Source of the DNA: Chryseobacterium lacus
GTDB taxonomy: Bacteria > Bacteroidota > Bacteroidia > Flavobacteriales > Weeksellaceae
Reading direction: 5' to 3'
Assembly: GCF_003336205.1 (NCBI RefSeq)
Contig: NZ_QPIE01000003.1
Span: forward strand, 186,001 to 250,000
Length of the DNA: 64,000 nt
Under the pieces are notes generated by a model. It was not told the DNA's origin and did not search any database. It saw nothing but the letters and a program-made list of their open reading frames with translations. The position numbers and the translations under genes are program-made. Shown here one piece after another: positions 3,971 through 61,232 of this stretch (within the stretch, counting starts at the first letter, position 1; every line of letters begins with the position of its first letter).

Positions 3971-4469
3971 CAGAACACTTCTTACTGATTTTTTACTGAT
4001 TGCCTTTCTGGTGGCGCTTCAGGTTTTCGTGCTGAACAGAATTACCGTTTCCAGCGAATATACGCCGGTGCTGTATCCGGTGTTTGTCATGTTCTATCCT
4101 TTTTTCAGAAACAGGTATCAATTTTTGGCGCTCAGTTTTTTGCTTGGGCTTTGTATCGACGCTTTTTTAGGAACCTGGGGAATCAATGCATTTGCTACCA
4201 CCGCTATTGCTTATTTCAGGACTCTTATTTTCAGAACGTCAACTGATACCACGACCGATTTTTTCTCTTTCAGTTCGTTGCAATGGCCACAATTTTTATT
4301 GTTTATCCTTACCAGTATTTTCTTTCATCAGCTTCTGGTTCAGTTTATTGAGTTCTTCAAACTCAGCCGTATTTTCGATATATTGCTGAATGTGTTGATT
4401 TCCAGCATTATTTCTTTTATATTTATCGTTTTGTATGCTTTGATTTTTAAAATCAAACAAAGGATTTGA
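3963..4469 (+). CDS. mreD: Rod shape-determining membrane protein MreD
   Basis: This is the small polytopic inner-membrane partner of MreC in the elongasome. The 168 residues contain about five hydrophobic segments, with the polar insert DTTTDFFSF around the middle. Sequence conservation in this family is weak, so the call rests on size, topology and its place between mreC (8-base overlap) and mrdA (TTGA overlap). No transport motif competes with this reading. Confidence 0.88.
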   Translation: MISRTLLTDFLLIAFLVALQVFVLNRITVSSEYTPVLYPVFVMFYPFFRNRYQFLALSFLLGLCIDAFLGTWGINAFATTAIAYFRTLIFRTSTDTTTDFFSFSSLQWPQFLLFILTSIFFHQLLVQFIEFFKLSRIFDILLNVLISSIISFIFIVLYALIFKIKQRI

Positions 4470-6484
4470 AACCACAATTTTTAAAAATAATCATCGTTTT
4501 AGGAATTCTTGCTGTAATTTTTATAGCAAGGCTGGCGTATTTGCAGCTGTTCACAGATCGTTATGCGCTGAATGCAGCCAATACTTCCATAAAAATAGAA
4601 TATGTCATTCCACAGAGAGGCGTTATTTTTGACCGAAACGGAAGAATTTTGGTAGGAAATCAGCCGGCTTATGAAATCTCTTTTACACAAGCTCTGATGC
4701 GCCCGGATTTTGACACCATCGGTTTTTGCAATTTAATGGAAATCAGTAAAAGTGACTTTGTAAAACGTATCGAACAAATCAGCAAGGAAAAATATTATTC
4801 CCGCCTTACTCCGATGACTTTTATGAAGAATCTGAGCAGGGAAAAAATGGCCAAGATTCAGGAAATTATTTTTAAATATCCCGCGTTCAGTATTGTTTCC
4901 AGACCGCAGAGACAGTATGAAGTTTCTACTTCGGGCAATCTTTTGGGTTATACCAATGAGGTAAACGAAAATGACATTAAAAAAGATTCCCTCTATTATC
5001 TTCCCGGAGATTTTATTGGAAAATCCGGAGTTGAAAAATCTTATGAAAAACACCTTCGCGGTGAAAAAGGACTGAAATACATCCAAAAAGACATCAAGTT
5101 GAGAAGCATCGGTTCTTACAAGGATGGAAAACTGGACAAAGAAGAAGTTTCGGGAGAAGATATTACCCTTACCATTGACTATGATTTGCAGAGAATAGCC
5201 GAGGAAATGATGGTAAATAAAAGAGGCGGCATTGTAGCATTGGACCCCAATACGGGCGAAATTCTGGTGCTAGCTTCCGGCCCCGATATCGATCCCAATC
5301 TTTTTACCGGCCCCGACAAATCTAAAAATCTCTACAATCTGCAGAAAGATTTGTTTAATATGCCGATGTTCGACCGATCCATACAGTCTGCTCATATGCC
5401 CGGTTCTACCTTTAAAATGTTTACCGCACTTGCCGGAATGCAAATGGGCGTGATGGATGAAAATACCATTTTCCCGTGCGGACGTGGATTTAATTATAAA
5501 GGATTGCGAATAAAAGGACATGGCGGTGCAGATCCGCTGGTTCCGTCAATACGGGTTTCCAGCAACTGCTATTTCTCTTATGCATTTATTGCCATTATGA
5601 ATAAATATCCGGGAAATCCTTCCAAAGCTATTGACGAATGGAAAGCCATTATGGAAAGTTTCGGATTCGGTGTTTTTCTGAATAATGACTTGGCTACAGG
5701 AGTGAGAGGCAGAATTCCTGATGGAAAATTTTATGAAAAAAGAAGCGGAAAAAAAGACTGGTTTTCTGATATTACCAGAAACGGCTCCGTTTTCAATGGA
5801 ATGGGACAGGGTGATGTGATGCTGACACCTTTGCAATTGGCCAATGGCGTTGCTGCAATTGCCAATAAAGGCTGGTTTTATACTCCCCATATTGTAAAAC
5901 TAATCGATGGAAAACCCAATCCGGATCCCAGATTTAAGGTGAAGCATAAAACACTGGTTGATGCAAAACATTACGAACCTATTTTGAAGGGTATGGAAGC
6001 GGTAGTTCTCGCCGGAACAGCGCGCGGACTGAAATCCAACGATTTTACTCAATTGGCCAAAACGGGTACAGCACAAGTTCCGCAGGGAAAAGACAATTCT
6101 GTTTTTGTGCTCATTGCACCTGCTGATAAACCGAAAATTGTTGTGGTTGCCTTGATGGAACATGCAGGTTTTGGATCAACTTGGGCAGGTCCTGCTGCTA
6201 CGGTAATTGCCGAAAAATACCTGACCGGAGATCTGAAACGGGAACATCTTTATAATAAACTCGTCAACGCCAGTTTTATGCCTGAATACCGCAGACAATG
6301 GATTGCAGATTTGAAGAGAAAAGGCTTGTATAAGGAACCTGACAAGGATTCGATTCGACTTTTAGAAATAAAGGATAGCCTTAGATTTATCAAAAGTGAA
6401 CCGGTGAGAAACAAACTTCTTCAGAAAAGAGATTCTCTCCAATCGAAAATGAGGAACACAAAAACTAAACAACAAAACCAATGA
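4466..6484 (+). CDS. mrdA: Penicillin-binding protein 2 (elongation transpeptidase)
   Basis: PBP2 is the class B transpeptidase that cross-links peptidoglycan during elongation together with RodA. The protein has an N-terminal membrane anchor (residues about 7-28), the pedestal motif RGVIFDRNGRIL, and a transpeptidase domain with GSTFK (Ser314), SSNC and KTGTAQ (Lys532). At 672 residues it is normal length. A basic K/R/Q-rich tail ends the protein. The start is the TTG at 4466, which overlaps the mreD stop as TTGA; no in-frame ATG exists before residue 78, beyond the membrane anchor. The stop overlaps rodA as ATGA, giving strict coupling along the operon. Confidence 0.96.
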   Translation: MKPQFLKIIIVLGILAVIFIARLAYLQLFTDRYALNAANTSIKIEYVIPQRGVIFDRNGRILVGNQPAYEISFTQALMRPDFDTIGFCNLMEISKSDFVKRIEQISKEKYYSRLTPMTFMKNLSREKMAKIQEIIFKYPAFSIVSRPQRQYEVSTSGNLLGYTNEVNENDIKKDSLYYLPGDFIGKSGVEKSYEKHLRGEKGLKYIQKDIKLRSIGSYKDGKLDKEEVSGEDITLTIDYDLQRIAEEMMVNKRGGIVALDPNTGEILVLASGPDIDPNLFTGPDKSKNLYNLQKDLFNMPMFDRSIQSAHMPGSTFKMFTALAGMQMGVMDENTIFPCGRGFNYKGLRIKGHGGADPLVPSIRVSSNCYFSYAFIAIMNKYPGNPSKAIDEWKAIMESFGFGVFLNNDLATGVRGRIPDGKFYEKRSGKKDWFSDITRNGSVFNGMGQGDVMLTPLQLANGVAAIANKGWFYTPHIVKLIDGKPNPDPRFKVKHKTLVDAKHYEPILKGMEAVVLAGTARGLKSNDFTQLAKTGTAQVPQGKDNSVFVLIAPADKPKIVVVALMEHAGFGSTWAGPAATVIAEKYLTGDLKREHLYNKLVNASFMPEYRRQWIADLKRKGLYKEPDKDSIRLLEIKDSLRFIKSEPVRNKLLQKRDSLQSKMRNTKTKQQNQ

Positions 6485-9791: not shown

Positions 9792-10730
9792 TTAAATTAT
9801 AAATTTATCGCTGATGGATTTGTGTTCGTGTACCATTTTCATTACATCGGCAAAAAGGGATGCACAGGAGAGCACTTTAATTTTTGATGAAAGTTCTGTT
9901 TTTACAGGAATAGTATCAGTAACAATAACTTCAGAAAGTGCTGAATTTTCAATGTTTTCATACGCTTTCCCCGAAAGTACAGGATGTGTGGCCATTGCCC
10001 TGACGGATTTTGCGCCGTTTTTCATCAGTATTTCCGCAGCTTTACATAGGGTTCCTGCAGTATCAATCATATCATCAATAAGAATAACATTGCGGCCGGT
10101 TACATCTCCAATCAGGAGCATTTCTTCCACAACATTGGCTTTTTTTCTTTCTTTATAGGCGATTACCACCTCGGCTCCCAGATACCCTGCATAATTTTTT
10201 GCCCTTTTGGCACCTCCCATATCCGGAGATGCAATGGTGAGATTATCCAGATTTAAAGAATGAATATAATCCACAAAAATAGTAGAAGCGTAAAGATGAT
10301 CCACTGGAATCTCGAAGAAACCCTGAATTTGGTCGGCGTGTAGATCCATCGTCATGATTCGTGTTGCACCGGCAGCTGTAAGAAGATTGGCCACCAGTTT
10401 TGCTCCAATTGGTGCGCGAGGTTTGTCCTTTCTGTCCTGTCTGGCAAGCCCGTAATAAGGAAGTACCACCGTGATGCTTTTTGCAGAAGCCCGTTTTGCA
10501 GCATCAATCATGAGAAGGAGTTCCAAAAGATTGTCTGCCGGAGGAAAAGTGGAGCCGATCAGGAAAACGCGCCCTCCACGCACAGACTCATCCAATACGG
10601 GTTCGAATTCGCCGTCACTGAATTCCTGAAAGTTTATTTTCCCCATTTCCTGCCCATAATGCTTAGCAATTTTATCGGCAAGATCTTTACTCGTTCGTGT
10701 AGAAAACAGATAACTTAACTGTTCAGCCAT
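9792..10730 (-). CDS. prs: Ribose-phosphate pyrophosphokinase
   Basis: Prs makes PRPP from ribose-5-phosphate and ATP, feeding purine, pyrimidine, histidine and NAD synthesis. The 312-residue product has normal length. It carries the ATP loop YYGLARQDRKDKPRAPIGAKL, the metal/flexible region MTMDLHADQIQGFF, and the PRPP-binding loop VILIDDMIDTAGTL. It has its own promoter box and terminator, so it is probably a single-gene transcript. Confidence 0.97.
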   Translation of the reverse strand: MAEQLSYLFSTRTSKDLADKIAKHYGQEMGKINFQEFSDGEFEPVLDESVRGGRVFLIGSTFPPADNLLELLLMIDAAKRASAKSITVVLPYYGLARQDRKDKPRAPIGAKLVANLLTAAGATRIMTMDLHADQIQGFFEIPVDHLYASTIFVDYIHSLNLDNLTIASPDMGGAKRAKNYAGYLGAEVVIAYKERKKANVVEEMLLIGDVTGRNVILIDDMIDTAGTLCKAAEILMKNGAKSVRAMATHPVLSGKAYENIENSALSEVIVTDTIPVKTELSSKIKVLSCASLFADVMKMVHEHKSISDKFII

Positions 10731-10750
10731 TTTTACTTTTTTATATGATG

Positions 10751-10758
10751 CAAATTTA
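10751..10758 (-). promoter_or_regulatory. Putative -7 box (TAAATTTG) of prs
   Basis: TAAATTTG on the minus strand lies about 20 bases before the prs ATG and directly after the terminator of the preceding gene. Confidence 0.55.
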
Positions 10759-10760
10759 AA

Positions 10761-10793
10761 AAAAATAAAACCACCTGAGGGATTTCAGATGGT
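10761..10793 (-). terminator. Terminator of the FadL/SGNH hydrolase operon
   Basis: The nine-base arms at 10770-10778 and 10785-10793 pair with one G-U on the minus strand, followed by an A/T tail with eight T in a row. It lies 28 bases after the SGNH hydrolase stop. Confidence 0.75.
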
Positions 10794-10820
10794 TTTTAAA
10801 ATTATTAAATTAATCGGCCG

Positions 10821-12272
10821 TTATGGAAATGCAACTCCGGAATATTTGTTGATGTCCGTGAGTGGTAAATTAGAACCATATTTTGCATTAATTGCTTTAA
10901 TAAATTCGTTAGCAATCAGCCCCGCTCCTCTTCCGGTAAGATGTACTCCGTCCAGAGAAAAGGTTCCTCCGGTAACGAACTCTGCAGTGTATTTCACATT
11001 ATTCCAACGTATTCCTGATATTGAGGACAGTTCTACCATTTTTGAATGCGCATCTACAAAAGCGAGGCCTTTAGATTGTGCAATCGTACTTAAAGAAGCG
11101 TTATAAGCAGTGGTAGCTGTGGTTACTTTGTTTGCTTCCATTTCAGTAAGAACATATTGGTCACTTAGAGGAACTGAAGTACCTCCTCCTGCTGATGGGG
11201 TAAGAACGGCAGAAGCAGTGAGCAGAATAAGATCATTCGCAGTGGTTTGACGGTAAGAAGGGATCTGCATTGCGGTAAGATTCGTAAGATCTTTATCTAC
11301 AATCACGGCTCCGTTGGCGATTCCTGTTTCAAATTTTATCAATCTTTTTTGATATTCAGCATCGGTAATCAAAGCAAAAGATTTCGCCTGTGCCAATGCG
11401 TTGTTATATTGTGCGTAGCCTCCATTCAATTGAGTTACCTGAGCGTCGTTCAGTCCGGCAATAGGCATTGCGGGAACTCTTGTAAAAAACGGGATTGAAG
11501 TAACACTGGGAATATTGGCAATAACGCCTTTGGCTCCGTTTGCGGTAAGTGCATTAACATAATTATTGATTACCGAAGCGAATACGGTGGGATCTGTAAT
11601 ATCATTCGAGCCATAAGTTGCCGGATTCATATTTCCTTTTTGGTCTACACCCGCACCTCCACTTGTTGCGTAAGAAAGAATATCATTATTCCCAATCCAT
11701 AAGGAAAAGAATGTGGGGTTTAATTCTAACGCATCAGTTAATACGGAAGAAGTGGTAGGATTTTTAGCAAATCTTATAAAGTAAGGATTTGCGGCATTGG
11801 GCAAATTGGCAGGATTTCCGTAGCCTGCAATTCCAAGGTGGAAAGATTTCGCACCCGGAACTCCCATATTGTGATAAGGTCCGGAACTAAAAATATTGGC
11901 TAAAGTGGTTGCTCCCACTCCTGGCGCAATGGTGAGTTCCATGGTAGAAGTAAGGATTCTCTTATTGGAAAATCCCACCGAGGGAATTCCCCCTAAGTTA
12001 TCGGCCATCAAAGGCTGCCGGAAATCTCCTCCACCTGCGAGTTTCATTTGTGATGCTACAATAGAAGGGTAGGATTCGTTTTGCCCGTCGATATATAATG
12101 CCCCGTCTCTGTATCCGGCTGTAAGTGAGTTTCCTAATGCAACATATCTGCTGAAATCGGCACTGCCGCTGGTTACAGGAATCTGGGTCAGGTCATTTTC
12201 AAAGTCAGTATCGCAACTGTATGAAAACAGCATCAGGGATACCGCGAGGGTGGATATGAATATTTTTTTCAT
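10821..12272 (-). CDS. SGNH/GDSL hydrolase family lipoprotein
   Basis: This is a predicted secreted esterase or lipase of the SGNH fold. A lipoprotein signal peptide ends at Cys20 (LMLFSYSC). Block I is YVALGNSLTAG with Ser49 replacing the usual GDSL context, block III is SLWIGNNDIL, and block V is LDGVHLTGRG with the Asp-His pair. At 483 residues it is longer than simple GDSL enzymes, with a sizeable insertion between blocks III and V. It starts six bases after the FadL-like gene, so the two are one operon. The pairing suggests surface or periplasmic ester cleavage feeding fatty-acid uptake; the substrate is unknown. Confidence 0.88.
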   Translation of the reverse strand: MKKIFISTLAVSLMLFSYSCDTDFENDLTQIPVTSGSADFSRYVALGNSLTAGYRDGALYIDGQNESYPSIVASQMKLAGGGDFRQPLMADNLGGIPSVGFSNKRILTSTMELTIAPGVGATTLANIFSSGPYHNMGVPGAKSFHLGIAGYGNPANLPNAANPYFIRFAKNPTTSSVLTDALELNPTFFSLWIGNNDILSYATSGGAGVDQKGNMNPATYGSNDITDPTVFASVINNYVNALTANGAKGVIANIPSVTSIPFFTRVPAMPIAGLNDAQVTQLNGGYAQYNNALAQAKSFALITDAEYQKRLIKFETGIANGAVIVDKDLTNLTAMQIPSYRQTTANDLILLTASAVLTPSAGGGTSVPLSDQYVLTEMEANKVTTATTAYNASLSTIAQSKGLAFVDAHSKMVELSSISGIRWNNVKYTAEFVTGGTFSLDGVHLTGRGAGLIANEFIKAINAKYGSNLPLTDINKYSGVAFP

Positions 12273-51160: not shown

Positions 51161-51934
51161 ATGCAGAAATACCATATTTCCCCGAAAGCCGTCTTGTATC
51201 CGCTTCTCATGATTGCCATGATGTGGATAGTATACTACTTTCAGGTTCATGGATTTTTTGGGAATTGTGCAGGAGCCATCATTCCGCTGGTTCCTGCAGG
51301 GTTGAAGGGTGTCATTTTTTCCCCTTTTTTGCATGGTGATATGGGTCATTTGGTGGCAAATTCTTTTCCAATCGCAGTGCTGATGTTCCTGTTGTTTCAG
51401 TTTTATCCGGTCTTTGCCAACAGAATTTTTATTTTGGGATGGTTGTTTACAGGTCTTCTGGTTTGGCTGCTTCCGCCGATTGATATTTTTACAGGGCAAT
51501 ATATGTATACCTGTACCATCGGTGCTAGTGGCGTGGTGTACGTTCTGGCTTTTTTTCTTTTTTTCAGTGGCGTATTTCAGTGGAATATGAAACTCCTCAC
51601 GGTTTCCCTTTTGGTAGCCATGTATTACGGGAGTTTGATATGGGGAGTTTTGCCTGAAGAGTTATTTTCCACACTCGATGAACCCAGTAAAATTTCCTGG
51701 CAATCTCATCTTTCGGGTGCCGTTATCGGTACTGCTCTGGCATTTTTCTTTAAAAACAAAGGCGAGAAGAAAAGGAAGTTTATTTGGGAGTTTCCCAATT
51801 ATTATAATGAAAAAGATGATGAATTGTGGATGCAGTACCGCGAAAAACATCCCGAAGATTTTGAAGATTCTTCACCCAGAAAGAAAGATGAAGTTTGGGA
51901 ACGTCTTGAAGAACTGAGAAAAAAAGACGAATAA
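51161..51934 (+). CDS. Rhomboid family intramembrane serine protease
   Basis: The 257-residue product has about six membrane helices in its first 200 residues. The catalytic dyad is visible as Ser123 in TIGASGVVY and His183 in WQSHLSGAVIG. The HGDMGHLVANSFP segment matches the conserved second-helix region. A charged cytoplasmic tail of about 60 residues (EKKRKFIW, EKDDELWMQY, RKKDEVWERLEELRKKDE) follows the last helix. The substrate is unknown. dprA starts 30 bases later, with its own promoter box. Confidence 0.9.
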   Translation: MQKYHISPKAVLYPLLMIAMMWIVYYFQVHGFFGNCAGAIIPLVPAGLKGVIFSPFLHGDMGHLVANSFPIAVLMFLLFQFYPVFANRIFILGWLFTGLLVWLLPPIDIFTGQYMYTCTIGASGVVYVLAFFLFFSGVFQWNMKLLTVSLLVAMYYGSLIWGVLPEELFSTLDEPSKISWQSHLSGAVIGTALAFFFKNKGEKKRKFIWEFPNYYNEKDDELWMQYREKHPEDFEDSSPRKKDEVWERLEELRKKDE

Positions 51935-51939
51935 TTTTC

Positions 51940-51947
51940 TATCTTTG
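51940..51947 (+). promoter_or_regulatory. Putative -7 box (TATCTTTG) of dprA
   Basis: TATCTTTG lies 17 bases before the dprA ATG, between the rhomboid stop and dprA. Confidence 0.55.
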
Positions 51948-51964
51948 GATAAATTAGCTTTTCC

Positions 51965-53077
51965 ATGTTTACTGATGAACACCTCTATTCCATTGCGTTA
52001 AGAAAATGCAGCCAAATCGGTGATATTAATTTTTATAAACTCGTGAGCGCAGTGGGTTCTGCGAAGGAAGTGTGGGGATTTCCGAAAAAAGATCTTGCTG
52101 CTATTATAGGAATTGGGGCTAAAACGATCTACGATATTGGAAATGCTGAATCTATAAAATTTGCAGAAAGCGAACTTAAATTTTGTGAAAACCAACAGAT
52201 CAAAATCAACCTCCGCCATCTTGGAGATCTTCCAAATTTACTTAATGAGTGCGAAGATGCGCCCGCCATTTTATATCAGAAAGGAGAATTTAATAAAAAA
52301 CTTACTCCGCTCAGCATCGTAGGGACACGAAATGTGACCCATTATGGAAAGAAGTTTCTTGAAGATTTCTTTGAAGAAATAAAAGACAGCAAACTCACAT
52401 CAATAAGCGGTCTTGCTTTAGGCGTAGATACAGAAGTTCATCAACAGTCATTGAAGCACAATATTCCTACAATTGCCGTACTTGCACACGGCTTTCATAC
52501 GCTTTATCCCTCGAGGAATAAGAAAATGTCTGAAAAAATTTTGGAACAAAACGGCGTTTTGCTTTCGGAATTTAATTCGTCACAGAAACCGGATAGAGAA
52601 AATTTTATTCAACGTAACAGAATTATCGCTGGTCTTTCGGAAGCTACAGTGGTTGTGGAAACTGCTTTCGGAGGCGGCTCAGTCAGCACAGCAAATTTTG
52701 CGAACCATTACAACCGGGAAGTGTACGCATTGCCCGGAAAAATCACCGACAAATATAGCCAAGGATGCAATCAGCTTATTGCTCAGAATAAAGCAAGAAC
52801 TATTTCATCCATCAAAGATTTGATTGAGGAGTTAGATATAGATAAGCCAAAATCTAAAGTTGGAGAACTTTTTCCCTATTCAGATATTAAGGCAATGCTT
52901 TCGGAAAAGCAACAGAAAATTTATGATATTTTGCAGAAATATGATTCACCCGTTGCTCTGGATGATATTGCGGAGCAATGCGGTTTTCCTTCACACAAGG
53001 CACTCCCGATTTTATTAGAACTGGAGCTTTCCGGTTTCATCAAAACTTTTTCCGGGAAACAGTTTCAAATTGCGTGA
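51965..53077 (+). CDS. dprA: DNA-processing protein DprA
   Basis: DprA protects incoming single-stranded DNA and loads RecA during natural transformation. The 370-residue product has an N-terminal helical part, the Rossmann-like core with LSIVGTRNVTHYG, ISGLALGVDTEVH, VLAHGFHTLYPSRNK, FIQRNRIIAGLSEA and NREVYALPGKI. A C-terminal winged-helix domain (SEKQQKIYDILQ) ends the protein. It suggests competence or DNA uptake potential, but no com genes are in the window. Confidence 0.95.
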   Translation: MFTDEHLYSIALRKCSQIGDINFYKLVSAVGSAKEVWGFPKKDLAAIIGIGAKTIYDIGNAESIKFAESELKFCENQQIKINLRHLGDLPNLLNECEDAPAILYQKGEFNKKLTPLSIVGTRNVTHYGKKFLEDFFEEIKDSKLTSISGLALGVDTEVHQQSLKHNIPTIAVLAHGFHTLYPSRNKKMSEKILEQNGVLLSEFNSSQKPDRENFIQRNRIIAGLSEATVVVETAFGGGSVSTANFANHYNREVYALPGKITDKYSQGCNQLIAQNKARTISSIKDLIEELDIDKPKSKVGELFPYSDIKAMLSEKQQKIYDILQKYDSPVALDDIAEQCGFPSHKALPILLELELSGFIKTFSGKQFQIA

Positions 53078-53205
53078 TTATTTTATAAAAAATCACTGTT
53101 TTGGGAGGAACATTTTGTTTTTAATAATTTTATGCGCTTTTTTGTGAATAAATATAGATAATCCTTCTAAAATTATTAAATATTCAATAAAAAGAAAAAA
53201 AATCC

Positions 53206-53235
53206 TTGGAAGTCTTGAAAAAAAAACTAAATTTG
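53206..53235 (+). promoter_or_regulatory. Promoter of gdhA (TTG-N19-TAAATTTG)
   Basis: TTG at 53206-53208 and TAAATTTG at 53228-53235 are 19 bases apart. gdhA starts at 53258. Confidence 0.7.
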
Positions 53236-53257
53236 TTGTAATCAACAACATCCACCT

Positions 53258-54616
53258 ATGGAAGATTATAACATAGATCAAAAAATTCAGGATTTTATTG
53301 CCCAAGTAGAAGCGAAGAATCCTAACGAACCTGAGTTTCTACAAGCTGTAAAAGAAGTCGCAATTACCGTGATTCCGTTCATAGAAAGCCGGAAAGACTA
53401 TCAGGGCATGAAGCTCTTGGAAAGAATGGTAGAAGCAGAAAGGATAATAATTTTCCGTGTTCCATGGGTAGATGACAAAGGTGAAATCCATGTCAACCGT
53501 GGTTTCAGAATTCAGATGAATTCAGCGATCGGACCTTATAAAGGAGGAATCCGTTTCCATCCTACTGTGAATCTTTCCGTTTTGAAATTTTTAGCTTTTG
53601 AGCAGGTTTTTAAAAACTCTCTTACAACACTTCCGATGGGAGGCGGAAAAGGAGGTTCGGATTTTGATCCTCAAGGAAAATCGGATATGGAAGTTATGAG
53701 GTTTTGTCAGGCATTCATGACGGAACTTTGCAAGCATATAGGCCCGGAAACAGACGTTCCGGCTGGAGATATTGGCGTAGGTGCAAGAGAAATAGGCTAT
53801 TTATTCGGGCAATATAAAAAAGTAAGAAATGAATTCTCCGGAGTGCTCACAGGCAAAGGGCTTGCTTATGGCGGATCATTGATTCGTCCTGAAGCAACCG
53901 GCTACGGCGTGGTCTATTTTTGTGAACAAATGCTGGGTACTATCAACGAAAAAATAGAAGGTAAAGTGTTCGCCGTTTCCGGGTTTGGGAATGTAGCGTG
54001 GGGAGTTATTAAAAAAGTAAACGAATTGGGCGGGAAAGTGGTTACCATTTCCGGGCCTGATGGTTTTATTTATGATGAAACAGGAATTAGTGGCGAAAAA
54101 GTAGATTATTTATTGGAGCTTAGATCTTCTGGCAACAACAGAGCTGAAGATTATATTAAAAAATATCCTGAAGCAAAATTTTTTGCCGGCAGAAGGCCTT
54201 GGGAAATAAAATGCGATGTGGCCATTCCCGCAGCTACGCAAAATGAACTCGATCTTGAAGATGCCAAAAAATTGGTTAAAAACGGATTGATTTGCATTAC
54301 CGAAGCCGCAAATATGCCGTCGAATTTGGATGCGATCAATTATTTCCTTGAAAATAAAGTTCTTTTCAGTCCAGGTAAAGCTTCTAACGCAGGCGGTGTA
54401 GCCACTTCCGGCCTTGAAATGACTCAGAATTCTATTCGTTTAAACTGGACTTCCGAGGAAGTGGATGCCAGATTAAAAGAAATTATGGTAGGAATTCACA
54501 AGGCTTGTAGAAATTATGGTAAAGAAGAGGATGGTTATGTGAATTATGTAAAAGGAGCTAACATCGCAGGTTTTGTAAAAGTAGCCGAAGCGATGCTTGC
54601 TCAAGGTGTAGTTTAA
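53258..54616 (+). CDS. gdhA: NADP-specific glutamate dehydrogenase
   Basis: GdhA interconverts 2-oxoglutarate plus ammonium and glutamate. The 452-residue hexameric type has MNSAIGPYKGGIRFHPTVN, LPMGGGKGGSDFDPQGKSD with the catalytic lysine, and the Rossmann motif VSGFGNVAWGVIKK near residue 240. Later parts include CDVAIPAATQNEL and SPGKASNAGGVATSGLEM. It stands alone with its own promoter; with glnN it provides the ammonium-assimilation enzymes of this window. Confidence 0.97.
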   Translation: MEDYNIDQKIQDFIAQVEAKNPNEPEFLQAVKEVAITVIPFIESRKDYQGMKLLERMVEAERIIIFRVPWVDDKGEIHVNRGFRIQMNSAIGPYKGGIRFHPTVNLSVLKFLAFEQVFKNSLTTLPMGGGKGGSDFDPQGKSDMEVMRFCQAFMTELCKHIGPETDVPAGDIGVGAREIGYLFGQYKKVRNEFSGVLTGKGLAYGGSLIRPEATGYGVVYFCEQMLGTINEKIEGKVFAVSGFGNVAWGVIKKVNELGGKVVTISGPDGFIYDETGISGEKVDYLLELRSSGNNRAEDYIKKYPEAKFFAGRRPWEIKCDVAIPAATQNELDLEDAKKLVKNGLICITEAANMPSNLDAINYFLENKVLFSPGKASNAGGVATSGLEMTQNSIRLNWTSEEVDARLKEIMVGIHKACRNYGKEEDGYVNYVKGANIAGFVKVAEAMLAQGVV

Positions 54617-54697: not shown

Positions 54698-55897
54698 TTA
54701 TTGAGCCTGTCGTTGTACAATGACAAACGCCGGAAAGTGGTCGCTATATCCACCTGTAAAAGTATCGCCGCTCCACGAACGGAAAGGATATCCTTTGAAA
54801 TTTCCTTGTTTGGTAATCAGGTAGCGTGGCGCATACACTTCTGTTTTGTATACAGAATATTCTTTTCCAACAGTATCGGAAATCAAATTTTGAGAGACAA
54901 TAATCTGATCAAATAAATTCGGTGCATCCCGATAAGCCAGAGAAGCAACGCCTCTTTTATAAAGGGGATACATTAAATTAAGATAAGGTTTTTCCGGGCT
55001 TAAATCTTTTGGAGTGTAGGCTGCTTTTAAGTGATCTTTCAAACTGCCGCTCACCGGATCATCGTTGAAATCTCCCATGGCAAACAGTTTTGTATTTGGG
55101 TTTTTAGAAATAATTTCATCCATTTCTTTTTTCAAAACAGTAGCCGCTGCATTTCTTTTTGGTGCCGAGGCTGCTTCGCCACCACTTCTGGAGGGCCAGT
55201 GGTTTACAAAAAATGCCACTCTTTCATTATCCAGATAGCCGATCACCACAAGGATATCCCGTGTGTAAGATCTTTTTCCGTCGGAATTAAAAATAGGAAC
55301 TTCCTTTTTATAAGATGAGGTTGGGGTAAATCTTCTTTTCTGGTAAATAAGCCCGACATCTACGCCACGGTAATCGTAAGAATTGTAATGAATAATACCG
55401 TAATCGTGTCTTGCAAGAGATGGTTGCTTGATAAGGTCTTCAATCACCTGGCGGTTTTCCACTTCAAGAAGTCCTACAACGGCCGGAGCGGTGTTGGTAT
55501 ATTGTACTCCTAATTCTGAAATAACGCGGGCAGAATTCTCGAGTTTTTTCTTATAAACACTTGTGTTGTAATTTTTTCCGCTTTTGGGAGTAAACTCTTC
55601 AGACTGGCCTTGGAGACGGACCACTTTTTTGCCAATCAGAGCTTCATTAATCCAAGGTCCGAAATATTCTTCAGTAACTTCTAAAAAAGGAATAGAATCC
55701 ACAGGAATGCTTCGGTGAAAAGCAGGGTTACTAATGCTTTTGGTGCCGTCTATATAATCCGCAGACTGTATAGTGTCCCAAAGATTTTCAACATTCATAA
55801 AGCCAATAGTGGCTACTTTCCGCAGTTGACGGTCTTGGGAAAAACCCATAAAAAAAACAGAAAGCAATAGTGCAATAAATAATTTTTTCATTTTCAT
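54698..55897 (-). CDS. Secreted endonuclease/exonuclease/phosphatase family protein
   Basis: The 399-residue product has a signal peptide (ending MGFSQD near residue 21) and a DNase I-like fold. Visible motifs are IGFMNVENLWDT (first metal region), VVGLLEVENRQVI with the metal-binding Glu, FVNHWPSRSGGE, MGDFNDDPVSG and a C-terminal GYSDHFPAFVIV with the Asp-His pair. The layout fits secreted nucleases or phosphodiesterases. It is divergent from a TonB receptor/DUF5689 pair 229 bases away, suggesting a shared nutrient role. Start choice is MKMKK at 55897 or MKK at 55891. Confidence 0.92.
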   Translation of the reverse strand: MKMKKLFIALLLSVFFMGFSQDRQLRKVATIGFMNVENLWDTIQSADYIDGTKSISNPAFHRSIPVDSIPFLEVTEEYFGPWINEALIGKKVVRLQGQSEEFTPKSGKNYNTSVYKKKLENSARVISELGVQYTNTAPAVVGLLEVENRQVIEDLIKQPSLARHDYGIIHYNSYDYRGVDVGLIYQKRRFTPTSSYKKEVPIFNSDGKRSYTRDILVVIGYLDNERVAFFVNHWPSRSGGEAASAPKRNAAATVLKKEMDEIISKNPNTKLFAMGDFNDDPVSGSLKDHLKAAYTPKDLSPEKPYLNLMYPLYKRGVASLAYRDAPNLFDQIIVSQNLISDTVGKEYSVYKTEVYAPRYLITKQGNFKGYPFRSWSGDTFTGGYSDHFPAFVIVQRQAQ

Positions 55898-55911
55898 TAA
55901 ATATTCTTTTG

Positions 55912-55930
55912 CAAAAGTAATTCAAATTTA
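55912..55930 (-). promoter_or_regulatory. Two putative -7 boxes of the nuclease gene
   Basis: TACTTTTG (55912-55919) and TAAATTTG (55923-55930) on the minus strand both precede the nuclease ATG by 15-30 bases. Which is used cannot be told. Confidence 0.45.
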
Positions 55931-56060
55931 AATAAGCGCAATTTTAAAAATTGGTAATTTTATAGGGCAAAAAATATAATCAATCTGGTCTTAGATGCTG
56001 ATCAATATCACATGTTAAAAATAATTAACTCAAAAAGATAAAATATTTAGAAATAAGGCG

Positions 56061-56068
56061 TAAATTTG
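56061..56068 (+). promoter_or_regulatory. Putative -7 box (TAAATTTG) of the TonB receptor operon
   Basis: TAAATTTG lies 58 bases before the receptor ATG, in the divergent region shared with the nuclease gene. Confidence 0.55.
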
Positions 56069-56126
56069 TGCCCCATCTTTAAATAGCTGGATATTAGCAT
56101 ATAAAAGCAACTAAATTATAAAACTT

Positions 56127-58991
56127 ATGTTTAAAAGGTTATCATTTATCACCATGTTTACACTGCTACCCGCATCGTACTACTTTGCGCAGACCACAGT
56201 GTATGGCTACCTGAAAGATGCTGATGCGAAACCTGTAGAGAACGCTGAAATTGACCTGAAAGGAACTGAAGGTGATGTTTCGGCAGACAAAATCGGGTAC
56301 TTTCAGTTTGTAGATCTTATGCCCGGGCACTATCAGGTTGTTATTACAAAGCCGAATTTCGAAACCAAAGTTCTGGAATTTGATGTAACAGCGGATGAAA
56401 AAAGAAGGGATTTAGGTGTCATTACCTTATACTCTGCATTGACGGGAGCCGAACAAGGCCTTGCCTTTATTGAAAGCACCGGTGATGAAGAGAACTCCAG
56501 CCAAGCTTCCACAGTCGGGCTTTTACAATCTTCTCAGGATGTTTTCAGCAGAATTGCAGCTTTCGACCTGGGAGCATATTGGTTCAGGCCAAGAGGAATC
56601 GACGGAAGAAACGGTGAAGTTATGATGAATGGTGTTTCCATGGTAAAATCTGACAATGGAAATGTAGATTTCGGAAATTGGGGAGGACTCAACGAAATTA
56701 CCCGTTATCCGGAAATTGCAGCCAATCATTCTCCTTCGGAATATGCTTTCGGCGGAGTAAGTTCCGTGATTTACAAAAACACAAAGGCCAGCGAATACCG
56801 AAAAGGCTTTCAGTTTACCCAATCTCTTACCAACAGAAATTATAGAAATCGTACTTCACTGCGTTACAGTTCCGGGATGAACAGCAAAGGCTGGGCTTTC
56901 ACGGTGATGGGTGCCAGAAGATGGGCTCAGGAAGGTATCCAGGAAGGAACTTTCTACGATGCTTACGGAGGTTTTATTGGGGTTGAAAAGAAAATTAATG
57001 ACAAACACACCATTACTTTCAACGCTATTGGTGCGCCTTACAAAAGATCTACTTCTAGCCCGAGCACACAGGAAGTCTACAATTACAGAGGAGTTCATTA
57101 CAACTCTTATTGGGGGTATCAGGATGGAGAAAAAAGAAGCGAAAGGGTAAGACAAGGCTTCCAGCCAATTTTCCAGTTGCAGGATTTCCTTAAATTAAGC
57201 GATAAATCCAGCCTTTGGACTACCGTTTCTTACCAGTTCGGAAAAGACAAAGCTTCCCGTTTAGACTGGCAAAACGTGCCCAATCCATCGCCTACTTATT
57301 ACAGAGATTTACCGAGTTTCTACGCAAATCAAATAAAGGATGCTTTAGCTGCTAATCCGGCAGCTGATGTTTCAGGGCTTGAAACTGCATTGAAAACAGC
57401 ACAAGAAGCCTGGTCGAGCGGAAACCCAGCTTTCACACAGATTGATTGGGACCAAATCTATAGAAACAACGCAGCGCAGCCTGTTATTTCAAAATATGGT
57501 GTTACGGGAAGAAGATCAGTTGTTTATCAGGTAAATGATGTTTCCGATGATAAAATCTGGAATGCAGCTACACATTTCGTACACAACTTTAATGATGCTA
57601 CCCGTTTTATCCTTAACCTTTCCTATCAGAATTACAGAGCAGATCAATACAGAGAAATCAAAGACCTATTAGGTGGCGATTTTGCTTTTAATATTGATCC
57701 TTTTGCCAGCAGAAATCAACCGGGGAAATCAGGTTTATTAAATGAAGGAGAAGCCAATATCGCTAAAAGAGAAGGCGATAAAATTGGATACGATTATACT
57801 TTCAGAAGACAGGAAGCAAAAATAAATCCGGGTCTGAAATTTTCTACATCTAAATGGGATATTTTTGTTTCTGCAATGGCAGGATACTCAAGTTCCAGCA
57901 GAGAAGGAATGTTCAGACATTATTTGTATAAAGATTCATACGGTAAAAGCAAGGATTATGATTTCTGGAATTTCGGTTTGAAAGGTCAGGCGATTTACAG
58001 AATTGACGGTAGAAACTTCCTCGTTTATAACGGAGCTGCTTTCAATCAGGCACCGTTTTTGGAAGATCTTTTCATCAATCCAAGAGTGAATTCTTCGGTT
58101 GCACCTAATGTTAAGAGTACGGTATATTATGCTAATGACCTTAGCTACGTCCTGAATTCTCCGTTTGTAAAAATGAGACTTACAGGATTTATAGTGGACA
58201 GCGAAAACGAAACCAATGTACAGCGTTTCTTTGCAGACGGAATTCAATTGGAAACCACCGATGACCAAGGAAATGTAACTCCATTGCAGAGTGCTTTCGT
58301 CACTCAGGTGATGTCGAACGTAGAAAAAAGAAATATGGGTGTAGAACTCGGACTTTCCTATAAACTGACTCCTTCCTGGGAACTTCAGGGATTGGCAAGC
58401 TACGGACAATATGTTTATAAAAATAATCCTGAAACATATTTCGCTTCTGATGCTGCCGGAGTTTTTGCAGATGGAAATTCATTCCTTGAGTTAGGAAAAG
58501 CATACCTCGACGGTTACAGACAAGGTGGAACGCCACAGCAGGGATATTCCTTAGGAGTTCGTTATAATTCGCCTAAATACTGGTGGATTGGAGCCAACTG
58601 GAACTACCTTGATGACAATTATTTAGATCCGTCTGCGATTATCAGATCAGAAAGATTTGTACAGAACCCTGAAACTTCAACACCGTTTGCAGGAATCACC
58701 GAAAGTGAACTTAGAAGATTGCTTCAGCCACACAAACTGCCGTCTGCTTTCTTCATCAATGCAAATGTTGGAAAATCATGGTTGTTAGGGAAATACTATG
58801 TTCTCATTACCGCTTCTGTAAATAATATTTTGGATAACACTGATTACATTACCGGTGGCTTCGAGCAAACAAGAAATGTTTCCTTCCCTGGTTTTCAGCA
58901 GGATCAGGACAGAGAATTTACGCAGTTTGGACCAAAATACTGGTACACTCAAGGGCGATCTTACTTTATTAATTTACAACTTAGATTCTAA
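56127..58991 (+). CDS. TonB-dependent receptor with N-terminal carboxypeptidase-like domain
   Basis: TonB-dependent receptors import large or scarce molecules across the outer membrane. The 954-residue product has a signal peptide ending SYYFAQ and a CarboxypepD_reg-like domain (residues about 24-110, VYGYLKDADAKPVENAEIDL). A plug with FRPRGIDGRNGEVMMNGVSM follows, then a long barrel ending YFINLQLRF, a typical outer-membrane C-terminal strand. No canonical TonB box or SusD partner was recognised. A DUF5689 lipoprotein gene follows 34 bases later. Confidence 0.93.
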   Translation: MFKRLSFITMFTLLPASYYFAQTTVYGYLKDADAKPVENAEIDLKGTEGDVSADKIGYFQFVDLMPGHYQVVITKPNFETKVLEFDVTADEKRRDLGVITLYSALTGAEQGLAFIESTGDEENSSQASTVGLLQSSQDVFSRIAAFDLGAYWFRPRGIDGRNGEVMMNGVSMVKSDNGNVDFGNWGGLNEITRYPEIAANHSPSEYAFGGVSSVIYKNTKASEYRKGFQFTQSLTNRNYRNRTSLRYSSGMNSKGWAFTVMGARRWAQEGIQEGTFYDAYGGFIGVEKKINDKHTITFNAIGAPYKRSTSSPSTQEVYNYRGVHYNSYWGYQDGEKRSERVRQGFQPIFQLQDFLKLSDKSSLWTTVSYQFGKDKASRLDWQNVPNPSPTYYRDLPSFYANQIKDALAANPAADVSGLETALKTAQEAWSSGNPAFTQIDWDQIYRNNAAQPVISKYGVTGRRSVVYQVNDVSDDKIWNAATHFVHNFNDATRFILNLSYQNYRADQYREIKDLLGGDFAFNIDPFASRNQPGKSGLLNEGEANIAKREGDKIGYDYTFRRQEAKINPGLKFSTSKWDIFVSAMAGYSSSSREGMFRHYLYKDSYGKSKDYDFWNFGLKGQAIYRIDGRNFLVYNGAAFNQAPFLEDLFINPRVNSSVAPNVKSTVYYANDLSYVLNSPFVKMRLTGFIVDSENETNVQRFFADGIQLETTDDQGNVTPLQSAFVTQVMSNVEKRNMGVELGLSYKLTPSWELQGLASYGQYVYKNNPETYFASDAAGVFADGNSFLELGKAYLDGYRQGGTPQQGYSLGVRYNSPKYWWIGANWNYLDDNYLDPSAIIRSERFVQNPETSTPFAGITESELRRLLQPHKLPSAFFINANVGKSWLLGKYYVLITASVNNILDNTDYITGGFEQTRNVSFPGFQQDQDREFTQFGPKYWYTQGRSYFINLQLRF

Positions 58992-59025
58992 TTTACTTTT
59001 TACATTCATACTAAAATAATCAACA

Positions 59026-60432
59026 ATGAATATCAAAAATCTTTTAAAAACGGCATTAAGTATTGTATTTGCTACGGCTACATTAGCTTCCTGCGTACAC
59101 AATGACGACTGGGATACCCCGCCGATCAATTGTGAGAACAAATTTGCTGCGCCTACCATCTCGCTGAAGGATTTTATCGCGATGGCACCAGCTTCGGGTA
59201 CAATAAAATTCCCTGACGGTGAGGGCGTTACAGACGTTATTATTGATGGATATGTAGTATCTTCAGACGAACACGGTAATTTCTACAAAACAATTTCTTT
59301 CCAAGACGCTCCGTCGAATCCAACTGCAGGAATGCAGATTGAAGTAGACAAATCGGGGAATTTTGCAGATTATCCTGTGGGAACTCATATCCGAATCAGA
59401 GTAAACGGTTTGGTATTGGGTCTCGACAGAGGAACTGTGAAACTGGGTGCTGTAGATCCTAGTTTTGCCATCGGTAGAATTCCGGGAGTTTTAGTTTCTA
59501 AATATATTTCAGGAGTTTGTAATGGAAACACGCTGGACATTCAGGAAATCACACCGCTTCCATTAGCGAGTCTGACTGAAGCTAAAGATCCAAAATATTT
59601 GAATATGCTGGTTTCTGTGCCGAATGTGCAGTTTCCCATCGGATTGTTAGTTCCGGAAGCTGACCGTAAAACTTATCTGGAGTATGCAAATGGAATCGCT
59701 GCAGATACCGACAGAACTGTGGAAGATGCAACAGGAGGTTCTACTATCATTAGAAATTCTTCTTTTGTAACTTTTGGAAAAACATTATTACCAAAAGAAA
59801 GTGGTACTCTTACTTTCGTGGTGAGCCGTTACAACACTAACTTTCAAATGCTGATCAGAGGTACAGAAGATGTTGATTTTACAGAACCGAGATTTGATGC
59901 TACTCCAGGAAAAGGAGGTACAGACATTCAGTACTTGGGGAATTTTACAGAAAACTTCGAAAGTTACAGCCCGGTAAATCAGGAAGTTTTCCCAAAATAC
60001 ATCAATGATCCTTTGTTAGGGAATAGATATTGGCAGCTAAAAGAATTCGGAGGAAACAAGTATATCCAACTGAGTGCGAATGCCGGGCAAGGAGCTTATA
60101 AGACCTATTTTATAGTTCCTGTAGATTTCACTACGGCTAATCAGGTTTCTTTCCGAGTGAATGTTGGTTTCCATAATGGGAATGTATTGAAAGTGTATAC
60201 TTCTACAGATTACGTTCCTATGGGAGATATTTCTGCAGCTACACTTACAGATATTACTTCCAGCTTTACCATTCCTACAACTCCGGCTTCAGGATATGGA
60301 GTGCTTACCAATGCAGGATCGCATACTTTCAATCCAGCATTGCAGGGTAATGGTTTTGTAATTTTTGAATACACTGGAGCAAATCCTGGCGCAACAACTA
60401 CCATTCAATTGGATGACATTACGGTGAACTAA
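59026..60432 (+). CDS. DUF5689-type lipoprotein, surface partner of the receptor
   Basis: The 468-residue product has a lipoprotein signal ending TLASC (Cys23). The N-terminal half (about 45-300) matches DUF5689: IDGYVVSSDEHGNFYKTISFQD, then IRIRVNGLVLGL, a pattern that looks like an OB-fold. The C-terminal half (about 310-468) is a beta-sandwich with FTENFESYSP and WQLKEFGGNKYIQLSA, resembling a choice-of-anchor/carbohydrate-binding-like domain. It is co-transcribed with the TonB receptor and ends in a strong terminator. A ligand-capturing role at the cell surface is inferred. Confidence 0.88.
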   Translation: MNIKNLLKTALSIVFATATLASCVHNDDWDTPPINCENKFAAPTISLKDFIAMAPASGTIKFPDGEGVTDVIIDGYVVSSDEHGNFYKTISFQDAPSNPTAGMQIEVDKSGNFADYPVGTHIRIRVNGLVLGLDRGTVKLGAVDPSFAIGRIPGVLVSKYISGVCNGNTLDIQEITPLPLASLTEAKDPKYLNMLVSVPNVQFPIGLLVPEADRKTYLEYANGIAADTDRTVEDATGGSTIIRNSSFVTFGKTLLPKESGTLTFVVSRYNTNFQMLIRGTEDVDFTEPRFDATPGKGGTDIQYLGNFTENFESYSPVNQEVFPKYINDPLLGNRYWQLKEFGGNKYIQLSANAGQGAYKTYFIVPVDFTTANQVSFRVNVGFHNGNVLKVYTSTDYVPMGDISAATLTDITSSFTIPTTPASGYGVLTNAGSHTFNPALQGNGFVIFEYTGANPGATTTIQLDDITVN

Positions 60433-60761: not shown

Positions 60762-61232
60762 TTAAAAGGTCACTTCATTGGTCTCTTTTCCTCGTTGGAA
60801 ATTCATTGTGCGTTGTTTGCCTTTATAAGCGATATTCACAAGGTTGAGTTGTCTTGGGAAAGTTCCGAGAAGGATGGAATTTCTAATTCGCAAAGTAGTA
60901 ATTTCTGCAACGCCGCTGGTCTCAAAATACACCCAAACGGTTTCTCCACTCACCTGGCTTCCTGTGAAAGTTAATGTTTTCGCAGATCCATTGATGTAAA
61001 GATCGAAGTTATTATTGACGTATTTTTTCACTTCCGCTTCAAAACCCGCTGTATTGGGATTTATTTTTATCGCGTCTGATATATGTTTGGTATTCAGCTT
61101 GGTAGTAAATTTTAGTGTTTTGCTTCCTTCATTGTAATCCGCTTTCGTCATTGATGAATAAAAATCGGCATCCGAAAAGCTTAACATTATAAATAATGTT
61201 AAAAGGCCTATAATATGTAAAAAATTTTTCAT
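60762..61232 (-). CDS. DUF6702 family secreted protein
   Basis: The 156-residue product has a signal peptide (about residues 1-21, MLSFSDADF). The mature part is beta-rich with HISDAIKINPN, NFDLYINGSAKTLTFTGS and ETVWVYFETSGV. From memory this is a DUF6702 protein, a family in Bacteroidota often found near M1 aminopeptidases; here the M1 gene is 15 kb away. The function is unknown. A good promoter precedes it. Confidence 0.8.
   Translation of the reverse strand: MKNFLHIIGLLTLFIMLSFSDADFYSSMTKADYNEGSKTLKFTTKLNTKHISDAIKINPNTAGFEAEVKKYVNNNFDLYINGSAKTLTFTGSQVSGETVWVYFETSGVAEITTLRIRNSILLGTFPRQLNLVNIAYKGKQRTMNFQRGKETNEVTF

Follow-up and report, generated by a model that had tools for sequence, protein, structure and literature searches.

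The outer-membrane pair RA0C_RS04915 and RA0C_RS04920 of Riemerella anatipestifer is the closest described counterpart of the locus analyzed here. RS04915 is described as an outer membrane protein that contains a carboxypeptidase-like domain, RS04920 as a protein with DUF5689 and DUF5017; both are reported to be essential for natural transformation, with markerless mutants below detection (PMC8459023). The authors' proposal assigns the binding of dsDNA to RS04920, its import to RS04915, and its conversion to ssDNA to a further protein that they leave unnamed; the main text of that 2021 paper carries no mention of the gene RS04910. ComEC, DprA, ComF, RecA, a helix-hairpin-helix protein, and a DUF1343 protein are also reported to be essential for transformation in this species. 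The window, a stretch of 64,000 nucleotides from Chryseobacterium lacus that was analyzed as a whole, shares with R. anatipestifer the orthologous pair, the gene order, a divergently transcribed enzyme gene, and, among the accessory competence genes, comEC, dprA, and those for the helix-hairpin-helix and DUF1343 proteins. The two differ in that dprA lies 3 kb from the trio in the window but, together with glutamate dehydrogenase, ~45 kb from it in R. anatipestifer, and in that the role in transformation comes from mutants there, whereas the window is known from sequence alone.

Other described systems share parts of this arrangement. In SusCD/RagAB-type importers, as in the window, a TonB-type receptor with a carboxypeptidase-like N-terminal domain is followed by a surface lipoprotein gene, but the window lipoprotein matches DUF5689 and DUF5017 alone in Pfam, with no SusD match, and its proposed substrate is DNA. 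The ExeM/NucH (Xds) extracellular nucleases share the EEP enzyme domain, and DUF5689 is joined to EEP in other Bacteroidota; an OB-like region of ExeM is described in PMC6085458. They differ in that the window divides binding and cutting between two proteins and its enzyme scores 19.9 bits against the ExeM/NucH family NF033681, below the cut-off of 300. Degradation of the non-transforming strand on the outer side of the cytoplasmic membrane is the role proposed for EndA (Streptococcus pneumoniae) and for the beta-lactamase-like nuclease domain of ComEC (PMC8579336, PMC12455585), as it is for the window enzyme; the ComEC domain has a metallo-beta-lactamase fold, unlike the window enzyme. We estimate at roughly 0.7 the probability that the locus encodes the outer-membrane part of a natural-transformation machine linked to TonB.

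The divergent trio and its counterpart in Riemerella anatipestifer

An earlier note on this DNA had described an enzyme gene transcribed away from a TonB receptor gene and a DUF5689 lipoprotein gene, and we find all three reading frames, and the spacing between the divergent starts, exactly as it gave them (Table 1). The divergent region holds TAnnTTTG elements in both directions, a motif that we take to be the Bacteroidetes -7 consensus. Of 56 loci, 49 carry the same motif at 30-90 bases upstream of the receptor, where shuffling gives a mean of 3.4; the count draws on non-independent relatives and leaves aside L045, which is near-identical to the window.

Table 1. Coordinates of the trio, its promoter elements, and neighboring genes, numbered within the window.
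Feature	Position	Strand	Remarks
Rhomboid protease, dprA, and glutamate dehydrogenase genes	51161-54616		just upstream of the trio
dprA	51965-53077	+	PF02481, 228.5 bits; ~3 kb upstream of the receptor
EEP-superfamily enzyme gene	54698-55897	-	PF19580, DNase I-like fold, signal peptide
Divergent promoter region	55898-56126		229 bases between divergent starts
TAnnTTTG -7-like elements for the enzyme gene	55930-55923, 55919-55912	-	in the divergent region
TAnnTTTG -7-like element for the receptor	56061-56068	+	in the divergent region
TonB-type outer-membrane receptor gene	56127-58991	+	N-terminal carboxypeptidase-regulatory domain PF13620
Surface lipoprotein gene	59026-60432	+	DUF5689 and DUF5017-like tail, M949_1556 family
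DUF6702 gene	60762-61232	-	after the trio; recurs downstream in many family members

The window genome (2.38 Mb) contains one match each to PF18942 and PF19580, and its closest named relative is a Chryseobacterium MAG, at 95-99% identity over the seven proteins compared. The order from dprA to the trio is repeated in L003 and L045. In L051 (G025), too, the receptor has the rhomboid protease, dprA, and glutamate dehydrogenase genes nearby, and the enzyme gene no longer stands beside it.

Genome G051, a single contig of 2,164,087 bases that we take as R. anatipestifer ATCC 11845 from exact matches of the published dprA and comEC primers (PMC8383284 Table 2) and from gene order, carries the same divergent trio, with identities to the window of 69% for the enzyme, 65% for the receptor, and 42% for the lipoprotein. 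The comEC primer pair also matched G065, of the same genus, and the dprA pair matched G051 alone, with 20 kb of G065 compared. In L036, where Pfam places recA at 4444-5475 and comEC at 10404-12212, three genes lie between comEC and the receptor; this gene order agrees with the published locus tags, and by gene counting the trio is RS04910 (the enzyme), RS04915, and RS04920. For Chryseobacterium, the identities to RS04915 and RS04920 given in PMC8459023 are 65.9 and 43.01%. The window receptor and lipoprotein are thus, as judged by sequence comparison, orthologues of RA0C_RS04915 and RA0C_RS04920; the uptake pair has been described before in R. anatipestifer, and the window adds a further member. 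There is a high likelihood that the two proteins act as the outer-membrane DNA-uptake pair of natural transformation. Besides dprA within the window, the window genome encodes comEC, a DUF1343/NamZ_N protein, and a 449-aa helix-hairpin-helix protein.

The lipoprotein also belongs to NCBIfam NF052645 (M949_1556 lipoprotein), which it matches at 692.9 bits over a cut-off of 475. R. anatipestifer G051 has one match to this family, and M949_1556 is therefore probably the same gene as the RS04920 lipoprotein. M949_1556 is cited for effects on LPS synthesis, antigenicity, and virulence (PMC4976936, PMC12566107, PMC6142336); together with the match to the NCBI family named after it, these reports suggest a lipoprotein that is mainly a surface-antigen or LPS-related factor, and they weigh correspondingly against a transformation machine. 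However, the markerless deletions of lipoprotein and receptor abolish transformation in R. anatipestifer (PMC8459023), and the domain fusions described below point to nucleic acid; we consider a mainly antigenic or LPS-related role very unlikely.

Linkage of the enzyme gene to the pair

We counted linkage in two sets of genomes. A lipoprotein match occurs in 76 genomes. Of these, 57 make up the first set, which is drawn largely from the same family; the remaining 19 are the window's own genome and 18 whose matches were weaker, split, at a contig end, or unfetched. In this set, the lipoprotein gene follows the receptor gene in 56/57 and the enzyme gene is divergent and within 800 bases of the receptor in 52/57; the layout of the trio is therefore not a chance arrangement. 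For the second set, of 31 genomes outside the family, we took G074 and 30 of the 135 DUF5689-positive genomes, the latter for their strong matches beyond the own family, with five strong g35 genomes left out. Here, receptor and lipoprotein are adjacent in 30/31, and the enzyme gene is adjacent in 22/31, being divergent in 20 and directly upstream on the same strand in L159 and L160. L003-L005 and L037-L039 stand outside these counts, and the weak-match loci L161-L169 are not among the 31. No relatives were found in viral contigs.

Over both sets, 74 of 88 loci have the enzyme gene next to the receptor, and the other 14 do not. Searching with the enzyme protein in 18 genomes (the 14 non-adjacent ones and four positives) gave a match in every one: in eight non-adjacent g35 genomes the enzyme lies ~16-55 kb from the lipoprotein gene, in G080 it adjoins a receptor on another contig, and in G218 the match is a shorter 320-aa form alone, at 39% identity.

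These counts bear on a different reading, in which the pair serves transformation while the enzyme, kept alongside by synteny alone, is either a periplasmic phosphodiesterase of unrelated function or a DNase by which uptake is restricted. The 14 non-adjacent loci agree with such a neighbor, as do the related PF19580 paralogues elsewhere in many genomes. The genes reported by the R. anatipestifer transposon screen (PMC8459023) do not include RS04910 either, an absence that would arise by chance in ~19% of cases (an estimate for 3,000 insertions, a 1.2-kb gene, and 2.16 Mb). Against this stand the linkage outside the family and in other families of the class, the same-strand runs of L159 and L160, and the presence of the gene in all 14 non-adjacent genomes. 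Domain fusions and the composition of ComEC, both described below, also speak against it, and we regard this reading as unlikely, at about one chance in four.

The shorter PF19580 paralogues measure ~310-350 aa and lie mostly away from the trio in the many relatives that carry them; the window genome has the linked enzyme alone.

The DUF5689 lipoprotein and the receptor

Pfam places PF18942 (DUF5689) at residues 69-283 of the lipoprotein and weakly recognizes a DUF5017-like tail. In 48/56 relatives, the lipobox Cys is followed by two or more acidic residues, which presumably constitute a surface-export signal. Many relatives (L055, L071, L076, L078-L083, L087, L089, L091, L092) encode lipoproteins of ~680-720 aa in which a tandem pair of DUF5689-like stretches takes the place of the single one.

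The motif VVSSDEHGNFYK...IRIRVNGLVLG, which the earlier note had likened to an OB fold, is present in the lipoprotein, and an OB fold for DUF5689 is plausible. Inside the DUF5689 of L164, the OB model PF01336 reaches 23.7 bits, below its cut-off of 27, and DUF5689 and the ExeM N-terminal part overlap in L162; hhalign gives a probability of at most 7% for DUF5689 against the ExeM N-terminal part. AlphaFold returned a pLDDT of 40.5 for the whole lipoprotein and 39.5 for DUF5689 alone, from alignments that are shallow because their rows were the window and L003-L005 alone. A search of the PDB with the lipoprotein profile yielded a weak gingipain-domain match alone (E 0.099), and one with the DUF5689 profile yielded nothing usable.

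In distant Bacteroidota, Pfam scans of ten proteins, chosen as fusion candidates for DUF5689 matches in long reading frames, reveal DUF5689 and an EEP domain within one reading frame in nine, several of them with a T9SS tail. These fusions support a role of DUF5689 with nucleic acid and also argue against the enzyme of the trio being an unrelated neighbor. With the 74 linked loci, they answer the question of whether DUF5689 genes are tied to nucleases elsewhere: they are. L194 was rejected as a fusion, since the DUF5689 seen in one search is absent from the whole-ORF Pfam scan. Separately, a 972-aa reading frame (L198:1606-4524, minus strand) contains an ExeM N-terminal-like stretch, matches NucT-type nucleases twice, and bears a T9SS tail, placing a second kind of nuclease beside such a stretch.

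In the receptor, Pfam identifies PF13620 at residues 24-93 and no plug or barrel. Among its homologues, Plug is matched in 5/29, at a best E of 9.7e-5, and matches in a PDB search with the receptor profile are confined to the N-terminal carboxypeptidase-like domain.

The enzyme, ComEC, and the proposed fate of imported DNA

Behind a signal-peptide-like N terminus, the enzyme matches PF19580 at 332 bits (Pfam cut-off 27), and it is thus the signal-peptide protein of DNase I fold that the earlier note had seen. The EEP signature residues, which we take to be catalytic, are invariant in 27/27 homologues, and for this reason the enzyme is likely an active phosphodiesterase. A PDB sequence search with the enzyme gave no match, whether the query was its sequence by itself or a profile. 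The description of the enzyme as secreted fares less well: no T9SS tail was found by Pfam and the protein ends with the enzyme domain, which points to a location that is probably periplasmic rather than extracellular.

ComEC was scanned with Pfam at ten of 20 loci with coordinates, plus R. anatipestifer. The proteins of the window genome and nine relatives have DUF4131 and Competence domains, with Lactamase_B in 0/10, and R. anatipestifer ComEC is likewise devoid of it (11/11 in total); E. coli ComEC, as a control, shows Lactamase_B at 83.8 bits. DUF4131 is reported to have been gained in the common ancestor of Bacteroidetes and kept in most subclades (PMC6299819). For a ComEC that has no nuclease domain, PMC12455585 states, with regard to Helicobacter, that the nuclease for the non-transforming strand is a gap. 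Given ComEC proteins without Lactamase_B, a separate nuclease would be expected, and the enzyme of the trio is the best-linked candidate; we therefore propose it, as a well-linked one, for the transformation nuclease. The composition of ComEC is a further point against an unrelated enzyme. The open-licence PubMed Central papers that we found mention neither the conserved nuclease partner nor its fit to the ComEC gap. In R. columbina, EDTA inhibits transformation and divalent cations restore it (PMC7965970), an effect that fits a metal enzyme without proving one.

The earlier note had combined the three proteins into a scavenging system for nucleic acid or phosphodiesters, in which the lipoprotein captures, the receptor imports, and the enzyme cuts. 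Homology, linkage, and fusions sustain the capture, import, and cutting of DNA, which is probably the function of the trio because the orthologous pair of R. anatipestifer, encoded in the same divergent trio, is essential for transformation; that same requirement counts against a trio whose main role is to scavenge phosphate or phosphodiesters. Such a trio would feed on extracellular DNA for phosphate or nucleosides, with the enzyme degrading it outside or in the periplasm and transformation as a by-product. A nuclease linked to a TonB-type importer would suit this, as would the T9SS-secreted DUF5689-EEP fusions of other Bacteroidota, which are fit for extracellular digestion, and R. columbina is reported to transform more when phosphate is removed (PMC7965970). 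In R. anatipestifer, however, phosphate removal lowers transformation (PMC8383284), for which the pair is essential, and the window enzyme has no T9SS tail. We therefore consider feeding as the main purpose improbable, although the trio may contribute to nutrition on the side, and rank the phosphate-regulon reading below transformation.

Transformation itself, as the preferred reading, has to accommodate several observations. Transformation is poor in the tonBA and tonBB mutants of R. anatipestifer (PMC8383284 section 20), which supports a link to TonB, but the authors attribute the tonBB effect to iron. Flavobacterium johnsoniae was not transformable (PMC7965970), even though it carries homologues (PMC8459023 section 21). 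In addition, a Saprospiraceae MAG (L004:4816-7410) encodes a PF19580 enzyme divergent to a DUF5689 lipoprotein with no receptor between them, which weighs against a transformation machine. The N terminus of that enzyme resembles a lipoprotein signal.

More tentatively, and at somewhat less than even odds, we propose that Bacteroidia possess a pilus-independent, TonB-driven DNA-uptake machine, composed of a DNA-catching DUF5689 lipoprotein, a receptor, and a periplasmic EEP nuclease that replaces the missing nuclease domain of ComEC and makes the transforming single strand. At this locus, the TonB-linked transformation machine of our preferred reading might work as follows: (I) the surface lipoprotein would bind dsDNA through DUF5689 and cap the receptor, (II) the receptor would be opened by TonB energy, (III) DNA would pass into the periplasm, drawn in by the helix-hairpin-helix protein, (IV) the EEP enzyme, probably periplasmic, would nick the DNA or degrade the non-transforming strand, and (V) ComEC, without a nuclease domain of its own here, would hand the remaining strand to DprA and RecA.

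In sum, the locus supplies a single named candidate for the nuclease of the ComEC gap, testable by one deletion, and the transformation reading gives a reason for the DUF5689 lipoprotein to bind DNA. The locus would also help to predict, for Bacteroidia of the environment and of animals, where DNA is taken up and genes are transferred.
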